DNA of 64,000 nucleotides from Haloferula helveola (GTDB lineage Bacteria > Verrucomicrobiota > Verrucomicrobiia > Verrucomicrobiales > Akkermansiaceae). The stretch spans positions 62,001 through 126,000 of the forward strand of contig NZ_AP024702.1 in the NCBI RefSeq assembly GCF_037076345.1, read 5' to 3'. Position numbers and translations under genes: made by a program. The notes under the pieces are model-generated. The model was not told where the DNA came from, made no database searches, and was given only the letters and a program-made list of their open reading frames with translations. Of the stretch, positions 51,839 through 64,000 are shown piece after piece. The stretch's first letter is position 1. Every line of letters begins with the position of its first letter.

Positions 51839-51875
51839 ACCCGGTGGAGTTTCGACTCCATCGGGTTTTCCTTTT
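51839..51875 (+). terminator. Intrinsic terminator after repeat-protein gene 48954
   Basis: A 12-bp stem (ACCCGGTGGAGT with ACTCCATCGGGT, one G-T wobble) around a TTCG tetraloop, followed by TTTTCCTTTT. It begins 27 bp after the stop codon at 51812 and abuts the end of the convergent regulator gene. Among the best-formed terminators in the window. Confidence 0.88.
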
Positions 51876-52960
51876 CAGGGAGGAGGCACGACCGAAGCCC
51901 CCTTCACGACTTCGGGCATCAGCCACGGGTCGCCTCCGGGTGCGACATTGCCCGCGACGATCTGCTCGAGTCGACGAACGACCTGCTTGGCGACCGATGC
52001 CGGATCCGAACGGTAGCCGGTGATCTCCGGCACCAGATGCTCGAGGAAAGGTTCACGGGCGAGCGAGACGAGACTGAGATCCTCCGGCACCCGCAGTCCG
52101 ACCCGAGCCGCACAACTGAGCAAGGTCGCCGCCTGCCGCGGCCGGTTGGTGACCATGGCCGTCGGCCGCACCTTCAACCCCATCGCGCGACGGAACACCT
52201 TCTCGACGCCCGCGGTGGTTCCGTCTTCGACAAACTCGACCACTTCGAATCCGTCGTCGGTCAACTCACGCAATCCCCGCAACGCCGCATCCACCCCGCG
52301 CAGCTGGTCCGGCGGGGAAAGAATGCCGACCTTCCGGTGACCGAGCCGCCAAAGAATGCCGGCGGCGTGTCGTGCGGTGGCTTTCCAATCGACGTCCAGG
52401 AACGGCAGCGTGATTCCCTCGTGAGGCGTACCCCGCACCAGACACGGGATGCGCTGTTCGGCAAACCATCGCTGCACCGGCAGGCTCGAGCGATGGAGGA
52501 TCCATGCGCTCCGACGCTCGGATGCGATGAAGTCGGCAATGCGTTTCGAAGGTTGCTTCGACTCGAACCAACCGGGTGCGATCACTTCGAAGCTCCCGCC
52601 CTTTTCCGCGAGCGCGCGACGGATGTGGTCGACTTCGAGCAGCATCGGTTGGCTCAGTCGCTCGAGGCGAAACGGCGACAGCATTCCGATTCGCAACCGC
52701 TCCGAACGCCCTGCCTCCTCCGACTTCCGATCGCCTCCGATTTTCCGCCGGCAGCCCGCCGCGGCAGGCTCGATCCATCCGCCGGCCTCCAGTTCCGAAA
52801 GCGTCAGCCGGACCGTGTCGCGTCCGACCTGCAGAAGCTCCGCCAACCTCCGCTCGCCCGGAAGATGCTGCGGCCACTCGCCGGCCTCGATGCGCAGCTG
52901 CATGACCCGCACGCACTCCGCCACCAAACTCCCCCGCTCCGGCATCCAATGCTCCGACAT
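51875..52960 (-). CDS. GntR/LacI-hybrid transcriptional regulator A
   Basis: 361 residues from MSEHWMPERG. N-terminal GntR-type winged helix (about 10-70: LRIEAGEWPQHLPGERRLAELLQVGRDTVRLTLSELEAGGWIEP), then a LacI/PurR-type periplasmic-binding effector domain (about 85-355; LGHRKVGILSP, DLSLVSLAREPF). This is the AraR-like arrangement, usually relieved by binding a sugar. It is a paralogue of the divergent regulator at 53162 across the whole length, including ILHRSSLPVQRWFAEQRIPCLVRG versus VLHKMPESVQRWFQANGLPTVIFG. Its position and the dyad sites point to control of the sialic-acid locus. Ligand not known; Neu5Ac or ManNAc are guesses. Confidence 0.82.
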   Translation of the reverse strand: MSEHWMPERGSLVAECVRVMQLRIEAGEWPQHLPGERRLAELLQVGRDTVRLTLSELEAGGWIEPAAAGCRRKIGGDRKSEEAGRSERLRIGMLSPFRLERLSQPMLLEVDHIRRALAEKGGSFEVIAPGWFESKQPSKRIADFIASERRSAWILHRSSLPVQRWFAEQRIPCLVRGTPHEGITLPFLDVDWKATARHAAGILWRLGHRKVGILSPPDQLRGVDAALRGLRELTDDGFEVVEFVEDGTTAGVEKVFRRAMGLKVRPTAMVTNRPRQAATLLSCAARVGLRVPEDLSLVSLAREPFLEHLVPEITGYRSDPASVAKQVVRRLEQIVAGNVAPGGDPWLMPEVVKGASVVPPP

Positions 52961-52997
52961 GCTTCCGCATATGCCTGATTCCCGCCGCCCACGCAAC

Positions 52998-53016
52998 CGG
53001 TATGATTCACCAACCA
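52998..53016. promoter_or_regulatory. Putative operator 5, regulator A side
   Basis: Dyad CGGTATG-ATTCA-CCAACCA, 37 bp upstream of the minus-strand regulator start. Read on the other strand it begins AACTGGTTGG like operator 2, so autoregulation is likely. Confidence 0.5.
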
Positions 53017-53066
53017 GTTTCCTAGGCCCGGATCTGCCGCACATCGAGGGCCCGCCCCACGGCGGC

Positions 53067-53085
53067 TGGTCTGTTTTCCAGACCA
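53067..53085. promoter_or_regulatory. Putative operator 6, regulator B side
   Basis: Perfect 7-bp dyad TGGTCTG-TTTTC-CAGACCA, the most symmetrical member of the family, 76 bp upstream of the ATG at 53162. Confidence 0.65.
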
Positions 53086-53161
53086 AGAATCCGCCGTCTC
53101 CGCAGCGTCAACGATCTGCCACCGTGTGCCGGATCACGAGACTTCCCATTCCCTTCTCCGG

Positions 53162-54247
53162 ATGCCCGCCCTGCCGCAATCCAAGTTCGCCCAGCTCTCC
53201 GAATTGATCCGCGAACGGATCGAGACCGGTGAGTGGACGGACAAGCTCCCGTCCGAAAGAATCCTCGCCGACGAGTTTCTCGTGAGTCGGACGACTTTGC
53301 GGCGTGCCCTTGAGATCCTGACACGCGACGGCCTGATCGAGGCTCCGTCGGCACGCTGCACCCTGCGCGCGATCCGGAAGTCCAAGGCACGTCGTACCGC
53401 GCCCACCCACCGCGAGGTCTGCTTTCTGACGCCGACACTCCACGTCTCTCCTCTGCTCACCGAGCAGATCGCGACGATGAGAGGCCTGTTCACCCAAGCC
53501 GGGATCAAGGTCGCATCGGAAGAGAGCGCATCGCTGGTCGACCGCCGCGACCCTTCCGCCCACCTGCGCCGCATCGTTGCCCGCCACCCGGACGCGATGT
53601 GGGTCCTGCACAAGATGCCGGAGTCGGTGCAGCGTTGGTTTCAAGCGAATGGCCTGCCCACCGTCATCTTCGGCTCGGCGTTTCCGGAAGTTTCTCTGCC
53701 CAGCGTGGATGTCGACTTCCGTGCCGCCGCCCATCACGCAGCCGGTCTTTGTCTCGCCCGGGGCTGTCGACGCATCGGACTGCTGATTCACCGCACTCCG
53801 CTGGCAGGTGACGAGAAAACGGTCAGCGCCGTTTCCGCCGTGCTCACCCGGCAAGGTTCGCCTGCTCCCAAAGTCATGCGTCACGACTCGAATCGCGCGC
53901 GCCTGATGGATGCTCTCGACCGCGAGTTCCTCGACAACCCGGATGCCTGCGACGCTTTGATCGTGGCCAATCACCACCACCTCCTCACCGTGCAGTCGCA
54001 CCTCTTGCATCGCGGCATCCGGTTGCCGGAGCAGCTCTCCCTCGTCTATCTCAGCAACGACCCGTCGGCCGAGCGACTCTCTCCACTGCCATTGCGCTAC
54101 GAGTCCGGTCCCGCGCTCATCCGGCGCTTGGTGGCGGCGGTAAAAACCCTCGCCGAAGGCGGCAATCCACCCTCCTCCTCCATCATCCCCAAGCTGCTCG
54201 ATGGCCAGACCATGAGAAGGGCAACTGGTCCGGAAAAGGACCAATGA
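53162..54247 (+). CDS. GntR/LacI-hybrid transcriptional regulator B
   Basis: 361 residues from MPALPQSKFAQLSELI; earlier in-frame GTG starts are possible but add no domain. GntR winged helix at about 8-65 (ERIETGEWTDKLPSERILADEFLVSRTTLRRALEILTRDGLIEA), LacI-like effector domain from about 80 (LTPTLHVSPLL, AAAHHAAGLCLARGCRRIGLL, LPEQLSLVYLSNDPS). It has the same length and arrangement as regulator A, which it faces, so the pair arose by duplication and inversion. An operator overlaps its last codons (54226-54243) in front of the next sialidase. Probably sialic-acid responsive; direction of effect unknown. Confidence 0.82.
   Translation: MPALPQSKFAQLSELIRERIETGEWTDKLPSERILADEFLVSRTTLRRALEILTRDGLIEAPSARCTLRAIRKSKARRTAPTHREVCFLTPTLHVSPLLTEQIATMRGLFTQAGIKVASEESASLVDRRDPSAHLRRIVARHPDAMWVLHKMPESVQRWFQANGLPTVIFGSAFPEVSLPSVDVDFRAAAHHAAGLCLARGCRRIGLLIHRTPLAGDEKTVSAVSAVLTRQGSPAPKVMRHDSNRARLMDALDREFLDNPDACDALIVANHHHLLTVQSHLLHRGIRLPEQLSLVYLSNDPSAERLSPLPLRYESGPALIRRLVAAVKTLAEGGNPPSSSIIPKLLDGQTMRRATGPEKDQ
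54226..54243. promoter_or_regulatory. Putative operator 7, in front of sialidase gene 54291
   Basis: Dyad TGGTCC-GGAAAA-GGACCA with perfect 6-bp arms, 18 rather than 19 bases. It lies in the last codons of regulator B and 47 bp before the ATG at 54291. Confidence 0.6.
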
Positions 54248-54290
54248 CTGACAGATCCAAGCTGCCTTTCGCAGGCGTATTTTGCCTCCG

Positions 54291-56537
54291 ATGAATCCAA
54301 AGCTTCAAATCCCGGATCCACGGCACGTCCTCGCCTTGTCCGCCCTCTTTCTCTCCAGCATCGGTCTCGCCGAAGAACCATCGCTGACTGAAACGACCGT
54401 GTTCGCCAACGAGGCCGACGGCTACCCGGTGTTCCGCATCCCGGCCATCGTCCGATCGAATGCGAACACCCTGCTCGCCTTCTGCGAGGGCCGCGCGGGC
54501 TATGGCGACGGTGGCAACATCGATCTCGTTCTCAAACGCTCCACCGACAACGGTGTCACTTGGGGACCGGTCATTCTGGTCCACGAAGAGGGAGGCACCG
54601 CCGGCATCACCATCGGCAATCCGGCACCGGTGGTCGACCGCTCCACAGGCCACATCCATCTGCTGTTCTGCCGGGAGAACGACACCGTGTTCCACACCGT
54701 CTCCACCGACGACGGGCTCACCTGGTCGAGTCGCACCGAAATCACGGACAACGTCAAACAGGAGAGTTGGGGTTGGTATGCGACGGGTCCTGTGCATGGC
54801 GTGCAGCTCGCCCGCGGTGAGCAGGCAGGCCGCCTCGTGATTCCCGCAAACCACCGCATCGGCCCGGATGGCTCGGACTCCGGGGCTTTCGGTTCACAGA
54901 TCCTCTACTCCGACGACCACGGTGCGACTTGGCACATGGACGCGGTGTTCGAGGCCGGCAACGGCGCAGCACCGAACGAAACCACGCTGGTCGAACTGGC
55001 TCCATCCGCCACGGGCGGCTCCCGCGTTTACATCAACTCCCGCGACTACGGCAGCGATCCCGGCAACCGTTCCGAAGCATGGTCCGAGGACGGCGGCACC
55101 AGCTACTCGGGACCTTTCGATGGCAACCCGCACTTTGTCACGCCTGTCTGCCAAGGCGCGCTCCTGCGCTACAGTTCGACCGATGACGGAGACAGCGTGA
55201 GCCGCATCCTCTTCTCCAGTCCGAACGGAGGATCACGTTCGAATGGAGCGATCTGGGTCTCCACCGACGAAGCGGCCACATGGAGCCAGCCGAAGCCGAT
55301 CCATGCCGGAGCCTACGCCTACTCCGACATGGTCCGCACCGCGGACGACCACCTCGGTGTGCTGTTCGAAACGGGCACCAGCTCCGCCGCCTACCAGACG
55401 ATCAACTTCATCCGCGCCAACGAGGCGTGGATCGATACTCCTCCGCCGCCTGCCGAGAATCCCGGATCCGCACTGTGGAATCTCGAGGAAACGGAACCCG
55501 GACAGACCTGCCCGACCACGGATGAGGCGATCCTCGACGTCCACCCTGAAGAGAACGGTCTCCACCTCACCGCCACCACAGCCTTTGCCTCCACAGCCGG
55601 CGCTGCGGACTTCGGAAACGGCCGCGCGCTCTCGTTCCAAAACGACGGCGGATTGCGCCTCACCGATGGCGAAAGCGACAACCGCTTCGACTACGGAGCG
55701 AACGACTCGTTCACCATCGAGGCGGTATGCCGCATTCCGTCCGGTCACACCGCGACCGACGCCATCGTCGCCAAGGACCTCGGGCCGACCTCACCCTCGT
55801 GGTGGCTGCGCCTCGAGAACGGAAAGCTCCGCTTCCTCGTCAGCGACAACGCCACCGAAGCGTTCCTTACTTCGACTGCCAACGTGAACGACGGTGAGTG
55901 GCATCACATCGCCGCCGTCCGTGACGTCTCCGATCCCGCATCGCGCGAACTCCGACTCTACATCAACGGTGCGCCCGCCGGCGAGACTACCGATTCGACG
56001 ACTGGCAGCCTCGCCAACACCCAGACCCTGTGGATCGGCCGCTTCAACGCCTCCGGCCGAGAGCTCACGGGCGACATCGACTTCGTCCGGATCACCCCGG
56101 CTGCCCTCGCCCCGGAGGATTTCTGCGGCAAGAAGACCCAGTTCGACGCCGACGACGACAGCATCCCGGACAGCTTCGAGCGCGAGGAGTCGGGATCGCT
56201 CGCACCGATGGGACCGGGCGACCTCGACCTCGACACCACATCCGACCTGCTCGAGTTCGCTCTGGCAACCGACCCGACCGTTCCGGATGCTCCCGCACTG
56301 ACAGTCGCCCACCTGGGCACCTCGGTGGAGGTCAGCACGCGCCAACGGCTGCTGCCCGACTGGCTCGGATTGCAACTCACCATCTCCGATGACCTTCGTA
56401 CTTGGTCGGATGCCGGGTCATCCGTGAGCCTTGCCGCTCTTGATGACGGCATCTGGGAGCGCACCGACCGCATCGACTTCCCCGCAGGCACGCCCGCACG
56501 GGGATTCTTCCGTTACGAACTGCGCGAGCTTCCCTGA
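54291..56537 (+). CDS. Exo-sialidase (GH33) with LamG domain
   Basis: 748 residues from MNPKLQIPDP; a TTG nine bases upstream is less likely. Signal peptide (VLALSALFLSSIGLAEE), then a GH33 propeller (about 30-385) with the RIP arginine in PVFRIPAIV and Asp boxes STDNGVTW, STDDGLTW, SDDHGATW and STDEAATW; a Glu and a Tyr needed for the nucleophile pair are plausible in NETTLVEL and GAYAYSDMV. A LamG-like sandwich follows (about 395-615; FTIEAVCRIPSGHT, WHHIAAVRDVSD), then a DADDDSIPDSFE loop and the C-terminal module. It lacks the N-terminal adhesin-like domain of the other two sialidases, so it may differ in linkage or target. An operator lies 47 bp upstream. Confidence 0.9.
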   Translation: MNPKLQIPDPRHVLALSALFLSSIGLAEEPSLTETTVFANEADGYPVFRIPAIVRSNANTLLAFCEGRAGYGDGGNIDLVLKRSTDNGVTWGPVILVHEEGGTAGITIGNPAPVVDRSTGHIHLLFCRENDTVFHTVSTDDGLTWSSRTEITDNVKQESWGWYATGPVHGVQLARGEQAGRLVIPANHRIGPDGSDSGAFGSQILYSDDHGATWHMDAVFEAGNGAAPNETTLVELAPSATGGSRVYINSRDYGSDPGNRSEAWSEDGGTSYSGPFDGNPHFVTPVCQGALLRYSSTDDGDSVSRILFSSPNGGSRSNGAIWVSTDEAATWSQPKPIHAGAYAYSDMVRTADDHLGVLFETGTSSAAYQTINFIRANEAWIDTPPPPAENPGSALWNLEETEPGQTCPTTDEAILDVHPEENGLHLTATTAFASTAGAADFGNGRALSFQNDGGLRLTDGESDNRFDYGANDSFTIEAVCRIPSGHTATDAIVAKDLGPTSPSWWLRLENGKLRFLVSDNATEAFLTSTANVNDGEWHHIAAVRDVSDPASRELRLYINGAPAGETTDSTTGSLANTQTLWIGRFNASGRELTGDIDFVRITPAALAPEDFCGKKTQFDADDDSIPDSFEREESGSLAPMGPGDLDLDTTSDLLEFALATDPTVPDAPALTVAHLGTSVEVSTRQRLLPDWLGLQLTISDDLRTWSDAGSSVSLAALDDGIWERTDRIDFPAGTPARGFFRYELRELP

Positions 56538-56637: not shown

Positions 56638-59556
56638 ATGAGAAACATGCCCACCATCAAAACCCTCCGTCACCTGCTACCGATCACGTTTGTGGCGGGA
56701 AATGCGATGGCCACCGCCATCGTCGATGTCGACTTCGCCCACCTCGCCCCGCTCGTCGGTGATCCCGACGGCCTCGATGACGGTGATCGCATCGAGGAAG
56801 TTTCCGGCAACGGCTACCACGGCTTCTGGGGAGCCACGAACAGCAACGTGCCGGTCGTGACCGCGGGCTCCGGCACCGGCATCGACACGTCGGGCGACCG
56901 GGTCGGCAAGGTGTTCCTGCGCGACGGACTCGGGGGAATCCCCGAGGAGTGGGACGGGCCGACCACCTCGGTATCACCCTACTTCTCCTTCGACGGAACC
57001 CAGAGCTACACCTTCGAGGCCGTGGTGAACTGGAACTTCACCGCCCAGGCCGTCAACGGCCTGATGGGACAGGTCGGCGGCAACGAAATATGGATCCGCG
57101 AGTCCGGCGGCTTCCTCAACTACGCCTTCGTCAGCGGCGGCGCCAACGCCAACCTCTTCACCAGCACCATCGACATCTCCGCCGCCAAGGCGGATGGCGA
57201 GTGGCATGTCGTTTCGGTCGTCTACGACGCCACCGCGGGAGAGATTCGTTCATATCTCGACGGGGTCCTCAAGCACACCAACACCGACGCGGACATCGGA
57301 ACGCTCGGCACCATGGTCAGTGCGACCGGTGACTTCTACCTCGGCGCCTACAATGGAACCTCCTCAAGCTACTTCGACGGCCTGCAGGACCGCTACCGCA
57401 TCAGCACGGGCGCCCTCGACCCGGTCAATTTCCTGACGGCACCGGCCGTCGCCGGAGGCAACGCCATCACGTGGACCGGTGGAACCGACGGAAATTGGGA
57501 TGCGACCACTGCGGGAAACTGGAAACTCGACGCCGACGACTCACCGATTCTCTTCACCGATGGCGATGATGTGACCTTCGACGAAGACGGTGCCACCGGC
57601 CTGATCTCGATCACTGGCACGGTCCAACCGGACGGGATCACCGTTTCCGCAAGCAGCGTGGATTACACCCTTTCCGGTGGCACGCTGGGCGGAACCGGGA
57701 CGCTTCTGAAGTCCGGAACCTCAACCCTCACTTTCGCCGGACCTGTGTCCCGCACGGGAAGCACCCAGATCGACGGCGGCATCTTGGTAATCGGTGACGG
57801 TGCCACAGTCGGAGACGCGCCAGCGGGCGTCACCACCATCGCCACGGGCGCATCGCTTGTCGTCTCCCGCTCCGACACCGTCGACTACTCGGGCAGCGCC
57901 CAACTCAAGCAGATCGATGGCGACGGGTCGGTTACCATCGACGGCGGCGGGACGGTGATCGTCAACCCAGGCACGGGCATCGGCTTCGACGAGGCTTCCT
58001 CGTGGAGCGCTCTGAGCGGAGGCGTCACTGTGATCGGAGGCTCCGAACTCCAAACCCTGCGCAACGGACGCACGGCGATGGGCTCCGGCCCGGTCACCCT
58101 CGGCGACGGGAGCTCCAGCGGTGCCCTTTCGCAATACAACGGCAGCTGGACATGGACCAACGACATCGTGCTCGTCGGCACCGACAACGCGATCCGCAAC
58201 CGCTCGTCCGCCGCCTTCGCACGTCAGCTCAAGCTGCAGGGTGTCATCTCCGGCTCAGGCGGCCTCACCTTCGAAGACCCGAACAGCTCCATGACCGACA
58301 ACCAGCTCGGCTACATCCTCACCGGCGAGAACACGGCCGACGGCACCATCACGATCGACAGTGGCGTTCCGGTCCGTGTCGGCGGGGTCCCCGGCGATAC
58401 CAATGTGACGCAGAACGGCCCGGATGCCGCGGGATCGCTCGGCACCGCAGCCATCGTCAACAACGGCTCACTCACCTTCTCGCGCACCGACAGCCACACC
58501 GTGGCCAACACGATCACCGGTGACGGCGAGCTCTTCGTCGGACTCGACAGCGACACTCCCGATCAGGTCGTCGACCTCACCGGATCCGCGACCAACACCG
58601 GCGACACCACGGTTCGTGCCGGCACGCTGCTCATCAACGGCCTGCACGGCAGCCAATCTCCCGGCCCCCTGAGCCTCCTTGAGGTTCTTCCCGGGGCCAC
58701 TGTCGGAGGCGGCGGGCAGACCGCCTCCGACATCAATCTCGAAGGCACACTGGCACCGGGCAACAGCACCGGCACCTTCACCACCACCAACTGGATCTAT
58801 CTCTTCGGGAACTCGACCTATGCTTGGGAACTCACCCAATGGTCGGGCGGCATCCCCGGCACCGACTCCGACCTGCTTGTCGCGGACGAGATCCAGATCG
58901 ACCTCACCGCCACACCGCTGGCACCGGTCACGATCGCGATCCTTCCGGACTCGATCGGCGACTTCACCGAATCGGCCATGACCTTCGTCATCGCCCAGTC
59001 CGGAAATGGCATCACCGGCTTCGACTCCGATCTCTTCGAGATCGATGACAGCGCCTTCGCCACCGCCACAGGCGCGACCGGGACGTGGACGATCCAGCAG
59101 AACGGCAACGACCTTGAGCTCGTCTACGCTCCCGGTGCCGGACTGACCGGATTCGCTCTGTGGATCGACGGATTCTATCCAGGCGAAAGCGACCCGCTGA
59201 TCATCGGCACTGACGCCGACCCGGACAAGGACGGCATCGGCAACGCCCTCGAGATGCTGCTTGGCGGCAATCCCACGGCTCCGAACGACGTGGCCCTTCC
59301 CGATGTCTCCACCACCGCAGGCGACCTCGTTCTGGAGTTCACCCGCGACGACCAGGCAATCGGAGTCCTCGACGTGATCGTCGAAACCAGCACCGACCTG
59401 TCGACGTGGCCGGTCGAGGACCAGATTACGGTCGGCGAAACCTCCGGCCCCGGAGTCACCGTTGTCGACAACGGCAGCACCGATCTCGTCACCGTCACGA
59501 TCCCGAAGGCCGGGGCTTCCGCGAAATTCGCACGTCTCCGTTTGGTGGTTCCCTGA
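56638..59556 (+). CDS. Autotransporter-associated beta-strand repeat protein (sialic-acid locus copy 2)
   Basis: 972 residues with signal peptide (about 1-27, ending MATA). A LamG_3-type domain (about 28-270; YTFEAVVNWNFTAQAVNG, EWHVVSVVYDA) precedes WTGGTDGNWDATTAGNWKLD and a repeat beta-helix: LKSGTSTLTFAGPVSRTGSTQIDGG, VSRSDTVDYSGSAQLKQIDGDGSV, GGSELQTLRNG, FARQLKLQG, TFSRTDSHTVANTITG. These blocks recur in the same order in the copy at 48954. It ends with a DADPDKDGIGNALEMLLGGNP loop and a C-terminal module (FARLRLVVP). The two copies flank the regulator pair and sialidase, suggesting a duplicated block. Surface role inferred. Confidence 0.8.
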   Translation: MRNMPTIKTLRHLLPITFVAGNAMATAIVDVDFAHLAPLVGDPDGLDDGDRIEEVSGNGYHGFWGATNSNVPVVTAGSGTGIDTSGDRVGKVFLRDGLGGIPEEWDGPTTSVSPYFSFDGTQSYTFEAVVNWNFTAQAVNGLMGQVGGNEIWIRESGGFLNYAFVSGGANANLFTSTIDISAAKADGEWHVVSVVYDATAGEIRSYLDGVLKHTNTDADIGTLGTMVSATGDFYLGAYNGTSSSYFDGLQDRYRISTGALDPVNFLTAPAVAGGNAITWTGGTDGNWDATTAGNWKLDADDSPILFTDGDDVTFDEDGATGLISITGTVQPDGITVSASSVDYTLSGGTLGGTGTLLKSGTSTLTFAGPVSRTGSTQIDGGILVIGDGATVGDAPAGVTTIATGASLVVSRSDTVDYSGSAQLKQIDGDGSVTIDGGGTVIVNPGTGIGFDEASSWSALSGGVTVIGGSELQTLRNGRTAMGSGPVTLGDGSSSGALSQYNGSWTWTNDIVLVGTDNAIRNRSSAAFARQLKLQGVISGSGGLTFEDPNSSMTDNQLGYILTGENTADGTITIDSGVPVRVGGVPGDTNVTQNGPDAAGSLGTAAIVNNGSLTFSRTDSHTVANTITGDGELFVGLDSDTPDQVVDLTGSATNTGDTTVRAGTLLINGLHGSQSPGPLSLLEVLPGATVGGGGQTASDINLEGTLAPGNSTGTFTTTNWIYLFGNSTYAWELTQWSGGIPGTDSDLLVADEIQIDLTATPLAPVTIAILPDSIGDFTESAMTFVIAQSGNGITGFDSDLFEIDDSAFATATGATGTWTIQQNGNDLELVYAPGAGLTGFALWIDGFYPGESDPLIIGTDADPDKDGIGNALEMLLGGNPTAPNDVALPDVSTTAGDLVLEFTRDDQAIGVLDVIVETSTDLSTWPVEDQITVGETSGPGVTVVDNGSTDLVTVTIPKAGASAKFARLRLVVP

Positions 59557-59659: not shown

Positions 59660-62194
59660 GTGATCCGAATCCTCACCGCCATCCTCTTGCTCGTGCATCT
59701 TCCAACCGCGCGGGCCAGCCTCGACTGGACCGACCTGCCGGCCCTGCCCGACCCCACGGGCTTCGCCGGAGCCTTCGCCGGCGTGTCCGCTGATGCCCTG
59801 ATCGTTGGAGGCGGAGCGAACTTCCCGGACGCGGCGCCTTGGGATGGCGGCAGCAAGGTTTGGCATGACCGGGTCTTCGTTCTGACAAAAACCGACGGCG
59901 CCTGGACCGAAGCCGGACGCCTCCCCCGCCCGCTGGCCTATGGTGTGTCGGTGACCACCGGCGCCGGCTTGGTTTGTATCGGTGGGTCGGATGCCGACCG
60001 TCACTACGCGGATGTGTTCCGACTGACATGGGGCGGCTCGAAGATCGTAACCGAGACGCTTCCTCCCCTGCCCGTGCCCTTGGCGAATATGGCGGGCGCT
60101 CTTGTCAATGGTGCGGTCCACATCATCGGCGGAACGGATTCGCCTGACGCCACGACAGCCTCGAACCGCCACTTTGCTTTCGCGGGAGACCAGTGGACCG
60201 AACTCGCACCTCTTCCGACCGATGGCCGGATTCTCCCCGTTGCCGCCACGAGGGACGGATCGTTCTTTGTCTTCTCAGGCGCCTCGCTGGCTCCTGACAG
60301 TGACGGCAAGCCGGTCCGCACCTACCTGCGTGACGCTTGGAAATACGATGCATCTGGTAATTGGGTCCAGCTTGCCGACATACCCCGCGCCGCGGTCGCC
60401 GCGCCCTCGCCCGCTCCCGCCATCGGTGCATCCCATCTCGTCGTGATCGGCGGCGACGACGGCTCCCTGGCCGATTTCCAACCGAAGTCCGAACATCCGG
60501 GATTTCTCCACGAGATCCTCGCCTACGACACCATCACCGACACCTGGACTCCGACGGTCGAGTTGCCTTCCGCCGTGCGCCCGCCGGTCACGGCTCCGGT
60601 CACGGAGTGGAACGGCAACTTCGTGATTGCCAGCGGTGAAGTGAGACCTGCGGTCCGTTCGCCCCAGGTCATCGCCCTCAAGCCACAAGCCAACAAGTCC
60701 GCCTTCGGGGCCATCAACTGGTCGATCGTCGGCATCTACCTCGCCGGCATGATCGGCATCGGCGTGTTCTTCATGAAACGGGAGGCGGCAGGTTCGACCG
60801 AAGCCTACTTCCGGGGCGGCCAACGCATTCCCTCGTGGGTCGCCGGCCTCTCGATCTTCGCCACGATGCTCAGCGCGCTGACCTTCATGGGGATTCCCGC
60901 AAGAGCCTACCGCACCGACATCTCGTGGTATCTCGGCCAACTGCCGATCCTGCTCATCGTTCCGCTGGTCGCGGCCTGCTACCTCCCGTTCTTCCGCAAG
61001 CTCGACCTCACTTCGGCCTACGAATACCTCGAGCGACGATTCTCACTCGCGTGCCGGGTGTTCGCCTCGCTGTCCTTCACCGCTTTCCACCTCGGACGGA
61101 TCGCGATCGTCCTCTACCTCCCGGCCCTCGCGCTCGCGGCGGTCTCCGATATCAATGTCACCACCGCCATCATCGTCATCGGCGTGCTGTGCCTGATCTA
61201 CACCGTGATCGGCGGGATCGAGGCGGTCGTCTGGACCGATGCCATCCAGGCCCTCGTGCTGATGGCGGGCGCCCTGCTCTGCTTCGGGCTCGCGGCTTTC
61301 CGTGTCGACGGTGGCCCGGCCGGCTTGTTCGAGATCGCGAGTCAGGATCACAAGCTGTTCGAGAATCTCCGCTGGGATTCGTTCGACATCGCCGACGGCA
61401 CCACGTCGGTCGTGATCCTCTTCATCGCATTCTTCTTCAACTCCTTCGTCCCCTACACCTCCAGCCAGGATGTCGTGCAACGCTACGTCACCACCCCCGA
61501 CCTTCCTGCCGCACGCAAGTCGCTGAAGGTCACGATGTGGATGTCGGTGTTCGGATCGCTTGTCTTCTTCCTGTTGGGCACCGCGATCTACGCCTTCTAC
61601 AAAACCCACCCGGCAAGACTCGATCCGACCCTCACCGCAGGCGACTCGATCCTTCCCTTCTACATCGTCCGCGAGCTTCCGGTGGGCATCTCCGGATTGG
61701 TAATCGCGGCCATTTTCGCCGCCGCGCAATCCACGGTCTCCTCCTCGCTCAACAGCGTGGCAACTGCCTTCGTGAAGGACTTCGACTCCCGCCTGTTCCG
61801 CCCGGGACGTTCGGACCACAGCTACCTCCGCTCCGCCCAAGCCGCGGTGATCATCGCAGGAGTGATCGGTATCGGCATCGCGGTGACCATGGCCCAAGCC
61901 AACATCGAGTCCGCCTTCAAGACCTTCAACTCGATGGTCGGCCTGACCGCCGGCTCGCTTGGCGGACTGTTCGCCCTCGGGGTCTTCACCCGGCGCAGCC
62001 ACGGCACCGGCGCGATCATCGGCGCGGTCACCGGACTCGTGACGGTGCTCATTCTCCATCTCACCGGCGCTCCTGTGACCGGTCTGCTCTACGCCTTCAT
62101 CGGCTTCTCCAGCTGCTTCCTCGTCGGCTGGATCGCCAGCCTCGTGCTTCCCGGCCACGGCGACTCCACGCTTTCCCTTCGAAATCCATCATGA
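59660..62194 (+). CDS. Fused Kelch mutarotase (NanM-like) and sodium/solute symporter for sialic acid
   Basis: 844 residues starting with GTG. A signal peptide (MIRILTAILLLVHLPTARAS) leads into a Kelch six-blade propeller of the cyclically permuted mutarotase type (about 20-345; DRVFVLTKTDGAWTEAGRLPRPLAYG, NGAVHIIGGT, HEILAYDTITDTWTPTVELP). After ALKPQANKSA a solute:sodium symporter begins (about 350-840) with 12 or more membrane segments, TSAYEYLERRFS, FNSFVPYTSSQDVVQRYVTT and the sodium-site-type serines in AAQSTVSSSLNSVATAF. The first symporter helix should start on the periplasmic side in this family, so the propeller would sit outside the inner membrane. The chain can convert alpha-Neu5Ac to beta and import it. 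It overlaps nanA by 4 bp. Confidence 0.88.
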   Translation: MIRILTAILLLVHLPTARASLDWTDLPALPDPTGFAGAFAGVSADALIVGGGANFPDAAPWDGGSKVWHDRVFVLTKTDGAWTEAGRLPRPLAYGVSVTTGAGLVCIGGSDADRHYADVFRLTWGGSKIVTETLPPLPVPLANMAGALVNGAVHIIGGTDSPDATTASNRHFAFAGDQWTELAPLPTDGRILPVAATRDGSFFVFSGASLAPDSDGKPVRTYLRDAWKYDASGNWVQLADIPRAAVAAPSPAPAIGASHLVVIGGDDGSLADFQPKSEHPGFLHEILAYDTITDTWTPTVELPSAVRPPVTAPVTEWNGNFVIASGEVRPAVRSPQVIALKPQANKSAFGAINWSIVGIYLAGMIGIGVFFMKREAAGSTEAYFRGGQRIPSWVAGLSIFATMLSALTFMGIPARAYRTDISWYLGQLPILLIVPLVAACYLPFFRKLDLTSAYEYLERRFSLACRVFASLSFTAFHLGRIAIVLYLPALALAAVSDINVTTAIIVIGVLCLIYTVIGGIEAVVWTDAIQALVLMAGALLCFGLAAFRVDGGPAGLFEIASQDHKLFENLRWDSFDIADGTTSVVILFIAFFFNSFVPYTSSQDVVQRYVTTPDLPAARKSLKVTMWMSVFGSLVFFLLGTAIYAFYKTHPARLDPTLTAGDSILPFYIVRELPVGISGLVIAAIFAAAQSTVSSSLNSVATAFVKDFDSRLFRPGRSDHSYLRSAQAAVIIAGVIGIGIAVTMAQANIESAFKTFNSMVGLTAGSLGGLFALGVFTRRSHGTGAIIGAVTGLVTVLILHLTGAPVTGLLYAFIGFSSCFLVGWIASLVLPGHGDSTLSLRNPS

Positions 62195-63087
62195 AGTTCC
62201 AACTTAACGGCCTCGTCGCCGCCACCCACACCCCTTTCCATCCCGACGGATCGCTCGCTTCGGAAGTCGTGCCGGTCCAGGCCGCGCATCTTGCCGAACA
62301 GGGCATCCGCAGCGTGTTCATCACCGGTTCGACCGGTGAAGCCCACTCGCTGACCCGCGACGAGCGCCTTGCGATGTTCACCGCGTGGGCCAAGGCCGGT
62401 CCCGAGCACGACATCAAGGTCGTCGCGCATGTCGGATCGAACTGCATCGAGGACGCGAAGGCTTTCGCTGCCGCCGCTGCGGATCTCGGACTCGACGCCA
62501 TCTCCGCTCTCGCTCCCAGCTACTACAAACCGGCCAGCATCGAGGATCTCGTGGAATGCTGCGGTGCGATCGCCTCGGCCGCCCCATCCCTTCCCTTCTA
62601 CTACTACGACATCCCGGTGCTTACCGGTGTCCGGTTCCCGATGTCGGACTTCCTCAAATCGGCAACGGGGCAGATCCCCAATCTGGTCGGAATCAAGTTC
62701 ACCAACGACGACCTCGACGAATTTCAGGTCGCCCGTTCGGTCGGTGACTTCGATCTACCCTGGGGCATCGACGAGAAGCTCCTCGACGCGCTCCAGACGG
62801 GTGCGACCGGTGCGGTCGGCTCGTCCTACAACTTCGCGGCCCCGCTTTATCGCGATCTGATCGATGCCTACGAGGCCGGCGACATCGACACCGCACGGAA
62901 GCTTCAGCAGCAGGCGATCGACCTGATCGATACCCTCGCCGCGATCGGCTACCTTGGCGCCGCCAAGGCGGTGATGGGCTGGCAGGGCGTGCCGGTCGGT
63001 CCGGCACGGCTGCCGATTTCGAATCCGACCCCGGCACAGCTCGACGCCCTACGCGAAAAGCTCCATCCTCCGGTTCTGCAATCGTGA
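62191..63087 (+). CDS. nanA: N-acetylneuraminate lyase
   Basis: Splits Neu5Ac into ManNAc and pyruvate in the cytoplasm. 298 residues of the DapA/NanA class. VAATHTPFHPDGSL opens the barrel, the GxxGE substrate site is FITGSTGEAHSLTRDER (about 44-60), the Tyr is in PFYYYDIPVLTG (about 136-147) and the Schiff-base Lys is in NLVGIKFTNDDLDEF (about 160-174). The wording is typical of NanA rather than dihydrodipicolinate synthase, and the setting confirms it. Its ATG overlaps the transporter stop (ATGA) and its stop overlaps the next start (GTGA), so the three genes are translationally coupled. Confidence 0.93.
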   Translation: MKFQLNGLVAATHTPFHPDGSLASEVVPVQAAHLAEQGIRSVFITGSTGEAHSLTRDERLAMFTAWAKAGPEHDIKVVAHVGSNCIEDAKAFAAAAADLGLDAISALAPSYYKPASIEDLVECCGAIASAAPSLPFYYYDIPVLTGVRFPMSDFLKSATGQIPNLVGIKFTNDDLDEFQVARSVGDFDLPWGIDEKLLDALQTGATGAVGSSYNFAAPLYRDLIDAYEAGDIDTARKLQQQAIDLIDTLAAIGYLGAAKAVMGWQGVPVGPARLPISNPTPAQLDALREKLHPPVLQS

Positions 63088-64000
63088 CCGAGGATCTTGG
63101 CGAGTTCTACCTCAGGCAGCTCCGCGACGACTGCCTGCCGTTCTGGTTTCCCCGATCGGTCGATGTGGAACACGGCGGTTTCCTGCACTGCTTTGATCGT
63201 GACGGCTCGCTCGTCGATACCGACAAGTCCGTCTGGGCCCAAGGACGGATGAGCTGGATGCTGCTCGTCCTTTACCTCGAACTGGAACAACGGCCGGAGT
63301 GGCTGGAGTGGGCCGAATCCGGGCTCCGATTCCTCGAAGAAAAGTGCATCGATCCTTCGGACGGCCGCATGTGGTTCCACGTGGCCCGCGACGGCACCCC
63401 GATCCGCAAGCGTCGCTACGCCTACTCCGAGAGCTTCGCGTCGATCGCCTTCGCCGCCCATGCCGCCGCGACCGGCTCCGACCGGTCCGCCTCGAAGGCG
63501 CGGGAACTCTTCGAACGATTCACCGACTGGAATTTCACGCCGGGAAAGATCCCGCCGAAGTTCACCGACGCACGGCCCATGGTCGGGCTCGCTCCTCGGA
63601 TGATCACGCTGGTGACTGCCCAGGAACTCGAACTCCGCCTCGGCAAGTCGGACGCGACGACTGCGTGGATCGACCGCTGCATCGAGGAGATCGAGCGCTA
63701 CTTCGTGAAACCCGACCGGAAAGTCGTGATGGAAGTGGTGGAGCCAGACGGCTCGATCTCGGACCACTTCGACGGCCGGACGCTCAACCCCGGCCACGCC
63801 ATCGAGGGCGCCTGGTTCATTCTCGAGGAAGCGCGGCGACGGAACGATTCACGGCTGACGAAGCTGGGCTGCGACATGCTCGACTGGATGTGGGAGCGGG
63901 GCTGGGATCAGGAGCATGGCGGCATCTACTACTTCCGCGACGTCCACCACCACCCGGTGCAGGAGTACTGGCACCACATGAAATTCTGGTGGCCGCACGA
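63084..64000 (+). CDS. N-acylglucosamine 2-epimerase (AGE/RnBP family), 3' truncated
   Basis: Converts ManNAc to GlcNAc. A GTG start overlaps the nanA stop by 4 bp; the frame is open to the window end, giving 305 codons. It has the alpha/alpha-barrel wording of the family: WFPRSVDVEHGGFLHCFDRDG, WAQGRMSWML, YAYSESFASIAFAA, LNPGHAIEGAWFILEEA (catalytic-type His) and QEYWHHMKFWWPH at the edge. No ManNAc kinase or ManNAc-6-phosphate epimerase is seen, so the pathway looks like the Bacteroides type (lyase plus direct epimerase). Full-length family members have about 390-420 residues, so roughly 90-110 are missing. Confidence 0.9.
   Translation, partial: MTEDLGEFYLRQLRDDCLPFWFPRSVDVEHGGFLHCFDRDGSLVDTDKSVWAQGRMSWMLLVLYLELEQRPEWLEWAESGLRFLEEKCIDPSDGRMWFHVARDGTPIRKRRYAYSESFASIAFAAHAAATGSDRSASKARELFERFTDWNFTPGKIPPKFTDARPMVGLAPRMITLVTAQELELRLGKSDATTAWIDRCIEEIERYFVKPDRKVVMEVVEPDGSISDHFDGRTLNPGHAIEGAWFILEEARRRNDSRLTKLGCDMLDWMWERGWDQEHGGIYYFRDVHHHPVQEYWHHMKFWWPH

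Follow-up and report, generated by a model that had tools for sequence, protein, structure and literature searches.

The fused gene and its neighbourhood

The window, a 64,000-nucleotide stretch of Haloferula helveola DNA, contained at 59660..62194 on the plus strand a single open frame of 844 codons with a GTG start and no internal stops, in which a predicted mutarotase domain was followed by a predicted sodium/solute symporter (SSS). The parts of this gene and the genes around it were as follows.

51875..53086, minus strand: second regulator of the same make as the next one, facing away from it (Pfam; divergent from 53126-54247)
53126..54247, plus strand: regulator with a GntR-type DNA-binding domain and a LacI-type periplasmic-binding-protein-like domain (Pfam)
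54282..56537, plus strand: sialidase-like secreted protein, BNR_2 plus laminin G (PF13088, PF13385), 3.1 kb upstream of the fusion
56638..59556, plus strand: 972-aa protein between the sialidase and the fusion (no Pfam match; weak autotransporter-repeat match)
59660..59716, plus strand: signal peptide, residues 1-19, cleavage after ARA (AxA) (translation inspected by eye)
59717..60685, plus strand: circularly permuted NanM-type Kelch propeller with six blades, residues 20-342 (PF24996/TIGR03548 in permuted order, NanM alignment, AlphaFold model, structure matches)
60638..60640, plus strand: E327, counterpart of NanM E209 (permuted alignment)
60656..60658, plus strand: R333, counterpart of NanM R215 (permuted alignment)
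60686..60709, plus strand: linker of 8 residues, 343-350 (between the last strand and the first helix of the model)
60710..62191, plus strand: SiaT-type sodium/solute symporter, residues 351-844 (PF00474, TIGR00813, SiaT 5nv9 match, fold match, Na+ and substrate residues)
62191..63087, plus strand: NanA-like lyase (PF00701, 179.7 bits; PRK04147, 173 bits, below the cut-off of 281)
63084..63998, plus strand: AGE-family N-acylglucosamine 2-epimerase, cut by the window end (PF07221, 110.6 bits; NF052547, 252 bits, below cut-off)

The fusion sits in a nan operon: the start of the lyase gene overlapped the stop of the fusion (ATGA), and the start of the AGE epimerase gene overlapped the stop of the lyase gene. 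In E. coli, YhcH is reported to provide NanA with open-form Neu5Ac (excerpt of PMC8141875); a profile search for this anomerase (DUF386, PF04074) found none in the window's genome. One mutarotase was found there in the genome search.

The first-pass annotation had described a Kelch mutarotase and a complete SSS symporter in one frame with one signal peptide. This architecture and its coordinates were correct, both the Pfam NANM and SSF profiles being above their cut-offs, and the signal peptide could be read by eye at residues 1-19 of the translation. A frameshift or assembly error at 60650-60780, which the annotation had named as a finding that would refute it, was ruled out by a full-length relative in another genome (locus L134) with the same architecture and 77% identity across the whole protein, and by the length between R333 and the first helix, which was 26-27 in 55 of the 57 fused proteins that retain both anchor residues (see below).

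Properties of the two halves

The N-terminal part of the fusion matched PF24996 (NANM) with 119.8 bits (cut-off 45) in two stretches in permuted order: residues 19-129 aligned to positions 225-348, the last third of the profile. The score against TIGR03548 ('cyclically-permuted mutarotase') was 145.1 bits (130.7 bits in the genome search), below the cut-off of 243.2, and the window propeller is not assigned to this NCBI subfamily, though its strand order is permuted. After rearrangement of E. coli NanM to the permuted order, the window propeller was identical to it at 87 of 303 aligned positions (29%), propeller pieces of fewer than 250 residues being left out of this alignment. E209 and R215 of NanM (mature numbering), which we take to be the catalytic residues, fell on E327 and R333, at the extreme end of the propeller directly ahead of the membrane part. 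Among 60 SSS-fused proteins, the Glu was kept in 55 and the Arg in 57; these rows, used for the residue and spacing counts of the SSS fusions, omit three incomplete fused proteins (L141, L149, and L158).

In the AlphaFold model of the fusion (30 sequences; mean pLDDT 87.1, pTM 0.85), the last blade consisted of strand A (313-317), strand B (320-329, with a bulge), strand C (332-342), and, as strand D, the N-terminal strand 21-26, which closes the blade. E327 and R333 were located on either side of the B-C turn. The NanM structure (2uvk) was absent among the matches listed in structure searches with this model.

In the other half, PF00474 (SSF) matched residues 383-792 with 165.3 bits (cut-off 22.8), and TIGR00813 (sss) scored 238.1 bits (cut-off 184). 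The closest solved relative was SiaT from Proteus mirabilis (5nv9; 390 bits, 40% identity), and the predicted fold agreed closely with 5nva: VIA Z of 47.1 with an rmsd of 2.0 over 472 residues, and a Foldseek TM of 0.94 by target length. The Neu5Ac-binding residues Ser60, Thr63, Gln82, and Arg135 of SiaT were kept as S405, T408, Q427, and R480, together with the Na2 site (S691/T692; Ser and Thr where SiaT has Ser and Ser) and the Na3 site (D527, S694, and S695).

Thr58 and Phe78 of SiaT were replaced by M403 and Trp, respectively. SiaT is reported to bind the beta-anomer of Neu5Ac, the anomeric hydroxyl of which is contacted by Thr58; the same source describes Thr58 as the least conserved substrate residue and T58A SiaT as still transporting (excerpt of PMC5931594). 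Since the T58A protein transports, Thr58 was not taken as defining for SiaT membership, whereas its replacement by Met means that strict beta selectivity of the window symporter cannot be assumed; judged from its residues, the substrate or anomer preference of this carrier may differ from that of SiaT. Thr was found at this position in 3/60 fused proteins, and the loss of Thr58 was dropped as a mark of fusion because all five unfused relatives fetched (L233-L237) also have another residue there (Thr in 0/5). Gln82 was kept in just 9/60 fused rows (7/30 plus 2/30), the window protein being one of them, and, owing to this rarity, the substrate of the fused family in general may not be that of SiaT.

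These results pointed to a predicted NanM-type mutarotase domain joined to a predicted SiaT-type Na+/sialic acid carrier. We consider it probable that the whole protein is a membrane-anchored mutarotase/Na+ symporter whose substrate is sialic acid or a closely related nonulosonic acid, although the 29% identity with NanM, the missed cut-offs of TIGR03548 and of the NanA model (lyase), and the Met in place of Thr58 may speak against it. A fusion whose substrate is KDN, a similar nonulosonic acid, or some other acidic sugar instead of Neu5Ac would explain the Met and Trp and the low score of the lyase, and NanM and NanA are reported to act on KDN also (excerpt of PMC8141875); however, this is unlikely with the carboxylate-binding Arg, Ser60, Thr63, and Gln82 all kept, and with a sialidase and an AGE epimerase in the cluster.

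Junction, recurrence, and a second carrier fold

According to excerpts of PMC5931594 and PMC7918813, the N-terminus of SiaT and other SSS proteins is periplasmic, and the propeller would therefore be periplasmic also, approximately 8 residues from the first helix. The claim of the first-pass annotation that the first symporter helix starts from the periplasm thus agreed with the published topology. In the AlphaFold model, the first transmembrane helix starts at residue 351, and the chain exits the propeller at the far end of strand C. Since strand C ends on the face of the blade opposite to the B-C turn, the strand order alone suggests that active site and membrane junction lie on opposite sides of the propeller. 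A second model, for a Dyadobacter fusion (43% identical; pLDDT 86.6, pTM 0.83), had the same element order at the junction, the two models being built from the same 30 proteins and hence not independent of each other.

Counted from R333 to Y360, a conserved residue of the first helix, the spacing was 27 in 41 rows and 26 in another 14, out of 57 fused rows that retain these two residues, and the remaining two rows (22 and 40) both lacked the catalytic Glu: the spacing was 26-27 in 55/55 rows keeping both catalytic residues, and held down to propeller identities of ~22%. As a yardstick, 68 conserved pairs within the propeller that are 22-32 residues apart were compared: at the median, 70% of rows had the modal spacing or were one residue off it, and a constancy of 96% was reached by 3/68 of these pairs and by 230/256 pairs in the symporter. 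Because approximately 8 of the 27 junction residues are linker and the rest are strand and helix, this constancy hints at a fixed pose but does not prove it, and inheritance from a single fusion event could also account for it.

It had also been proposed that the fusion would channel the beta-anomer into the transporter; this part was not upheld, and with Met in place of Thr58 a strict beta preference of the carrier cannot be assumed. A propeller docked over the symporter vestibule, delivering its product directly into the pore, would suit the short linker and constant spacing, which favour a fixed pose near the periplasmic mouth; on the other hand, the strand order of the model would put the active site and the chain exit on opposite faces, and E. 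coli manages with soluble NanM and a separate carrier (excerpt of PMC10017367), such that direct channelling appears improbable. The first-pass annotation was sound on the architecture and the periplasmic side, and had overlooked the circular permutation of the propeller.

Propeller matches (E <= 1e-8) were found in 81/387 genomes of the window's phylum, and the stretches around them (loci L039-L131) contained 117 frames with a propeller, 30 of them also with an SSS domain; one match (L097 in genome G044) is missing from the 117. Among the best 80 of 558 confirmed relatives in the genome collection, 32 were SSS-fused, 47 separate, and one a sulfatase-like fusion. The SSS-fused loci among these 80 spanned Verrucomicrobiota, Planctomycetota, Bacteroidota, and Sumerlaeota, and sources of such fusions included Luteolibacter, Dyadobacter, Larkinella, Chitinophaga, Longitalea, Planctomycetota, and Sumerlaeota. 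A NanA-, AGE-, or sialidase-like gene was nearby in 22/32 fused loci and 28/48 others (stretches around the best 80). No separate SSS gene adjoined the mutarotase gene at any of these 80 loci, best of the 558, and an MFS gene adjoined it in 16/48 loci that were not SSS-fused and 0/32 that were.

Among the nearest relatives of the symporter within the phylum (50 rows scoring at least 300 bits), 48 were in frames of at least 650 codons (counted by eye), suggesting that an N-terminal extension is the rule, which stop-to-stop frames may overstate. Some of these extensions were divergent propellers, and others had no Pfam match. SiaT-like symporters with extensions of ~130-320 residues and no Pfam match were L216, L217, L218, L220, L223, and L224. 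An unfused SiaT-like symporter, 46% identical to that of the window, was located directly before a NanA-like gene (L233:2621-4270), in a genome (G372) with separate mutarotases. In another locus (L142:5653-8382), a permuted mutarotase was followed by ~490 C-terminal residues, sulfatase-like as read from the letters; the nearest propeller to it in the propeller tree was the SSS-fused L151.

In one genus of the window's family (g2), the permuted propeller was fused to an MFS carrier (L127:5405-7990, L068:2751-5297, and L048:5252-7855, among others). The L127 fusion matched PF07690 with 161 bits, and its nearest NCBI model was TIGR00893 (D-galactonate transporter; 154 bits, below cut-off). MFS carriers normally start in the cytoplasm, and a periplasmic propeller therefore needs one more helix: in 12/12 traced fusions, 19 strongly hydrophobic residues (mean hydropathy 2.0 to 3.1) and then a basic loop separated the propeller from MFS helix 1, and all 12 also kept the catalytic Glu and Arg. 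One predicted enzyme is joined to two carrier folds, each with a predicted topology leaving the enzyme outside. Derivation of the MFS fusion from the SSS fusion via a shared first helix was rejected, since MFS fusions scored no higher than unfused MFS proteins against a profile of the SSS junction. The MFS-fused gene in this genus was usually beside a second, separate mutarotase gene; in other g2 species, the second propeller gene adjoined a separate MFS gene. The recurrence of fusion in several groups, and with an unrelated carrier, suggests that anomer conversion and import gain from being joined.

In a tree of 160 propellers (a quick method, with many long branches and approximately half of the phylum's separate enzymes left out at random), the 62 SSS-fused rows needed 15 state changes, at least 11 of which were forced by starred branches, and the MFS-fused rows needed 2. 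In a tree of 86 symporter domains, fused rows were mixed with a few unfused ones, SiaT among these; five unfused symporters had been fetched. Rows were chosen partly for being fused, which biases both trees, and the changes of state may reflect gain or loss of the fusion, from one or several origins. In a fusion from the window's genus (L067:4062-6935), the symporter was 71% identical to that of the window, and the propeller was 37% identical and ~60 residues longer; the two halves were placed differently in the two trees, and this propeller may have been exchanged or be fast-evolving.

The frequent changes of the SSS label in the propeller tree, together with the mutarotase and carrier genes found side by side in 16/48 relatives, would be expected if neighbouring genes had merged by chance with no gain beyond co-expression. 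It is hard to reconcile such a neutral fusion, to which we give little credence, with the same propeller on two unrelated carrier folds (in the MFS case with a helix keeping it periplasmic) or with a spacing of 26-27 down to ~22% propeller identity. Least probable is a propeller that gathers or senses substrate like a binding protein fused to a transporter and is not an enzyme, as the catalytic Glu and Arg are kept in the window and in 55/60 fused rows, even though the pair is missing in some distant SSS fusions (5/60) and related symporters carry other N-terminal domains with no Pfam match.

Proposed function and comparison with known systems

From the gene structure, predicted fold, residues, operon, recurrence, and spacing observed, we infer the following activities, substrate, orientation, and benefit for the anchored mutarotase/symporter. 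The cell's sialidase would release Neu5Ac as the alpha-anomer, which the periplasmic, permuted NanM-type propeller would equilibrate towards the beta-anomer. The fused SiaT-type symporter would then import Neu5Ac with Na+ across the inner membrane, for degradation by NanA and AGE in the cytoplasm. Fusion would hold enzyme and importer together in a 1:1 ratio, at a spacing that hardly varies. The propeller would probably have its back to the membrane, leaving the active site open to the periplasm. With the putative active site away from the membrane junction, the fusion most likely helps by anchoring the enzyme and equilibrating the substrate locally, next to the importer, and a closed channel between active site and pore is unlikely. 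A permuted mutarotase gene of Parabacteroides is reported to rise with Neu5Ac (excerpt of PMC12893687).

A bolder proposal, that PVC bacteria and Bacteroidota convert the anomer and import sialic acid as one mechanical unit of fixed geometry, is doubtful. If true, permutation would have put both chain ends on the face away from the active site, and the propeller would seat on the carrier with its mouth open, making it mountable on SSS proteins directly and on MFS proteins via an added helix; carriers with the enzyme always beside them would need no anomer selection, and would have lost Thr58 for this reason.

For the anchored mutarotase/symporter with local equilibration, the wider question is whether periplasmic mutarotation limits sialic acid uptake, which is unsettled. 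NanM is known to accelerate alpha/beta exchange and may help the transporter (excerpts of PMC10017367 and PMC8141875), and loss of nanM in E. coli is reported to cost at most 20% of growth rate (excerpt of PMC3658417). The SSS fusion, its unfused relatives, and the MFS fusion offer a ready comparison, with the same enzyme split or fused and with two carrier folds, and they provide a clear example of a secondary transporter that has an enzyme as part of its chain. They may also guide annotation, since such fusions are expected to be named for the symporter half only.

The first-pass annotation had known of no biochemical test of this fusion, and neither a description nor a test of a mutarotase-SSS or mutarotase-MFS fusion was found in an open-licence library, a scope outside which the 2008 mutarotase paper falls. 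A YjhT-SSS fusion may reportedly have been remarked on in the literature of Severi et al. 2008 and Thomas 2016. The fusion is not claimed here as unreported, as the founding mutarotase paper may mention it.

Among the known systems, NanM/YjhT (E. coli b4310; 2uvk) is alike in being a six-bladed periplasmic Kelch propeller, with its catalytic Glu and Arg placed in the corresponding hairpin. It differs in being soluble, separate, and not permuted in E. coli, and its ends, judged from the alignment, probably lie in the D-A loop on the active-site face, unlike the chain exit of the fusion. The TIGR03548 family has the permuted propeller order in common with the fusion, and its separate members are without a symporter. 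SiaT from P. mirabilis (5nv9/5nva) matches the whole SSS part, lacks an N-terminal enzyme, and has Thr58 and Phe78 where the fusion has Met and Trp. In CbrA and MxtR, an SSS domain is part of a multi-domain protein, as in the fusion, with the difference that the partner is a cytoplasmic C-terminal kinase and not a periplasmic N-terminal enzyme; the excerpt of the SSS review treating these kinase fusions (PMC7918813) names no mutarotase fusion. Both halves of the window protein are of known kinds, and what appears new is their permanent union at a fixed spacing, with a parallel union to an MFS carrier.
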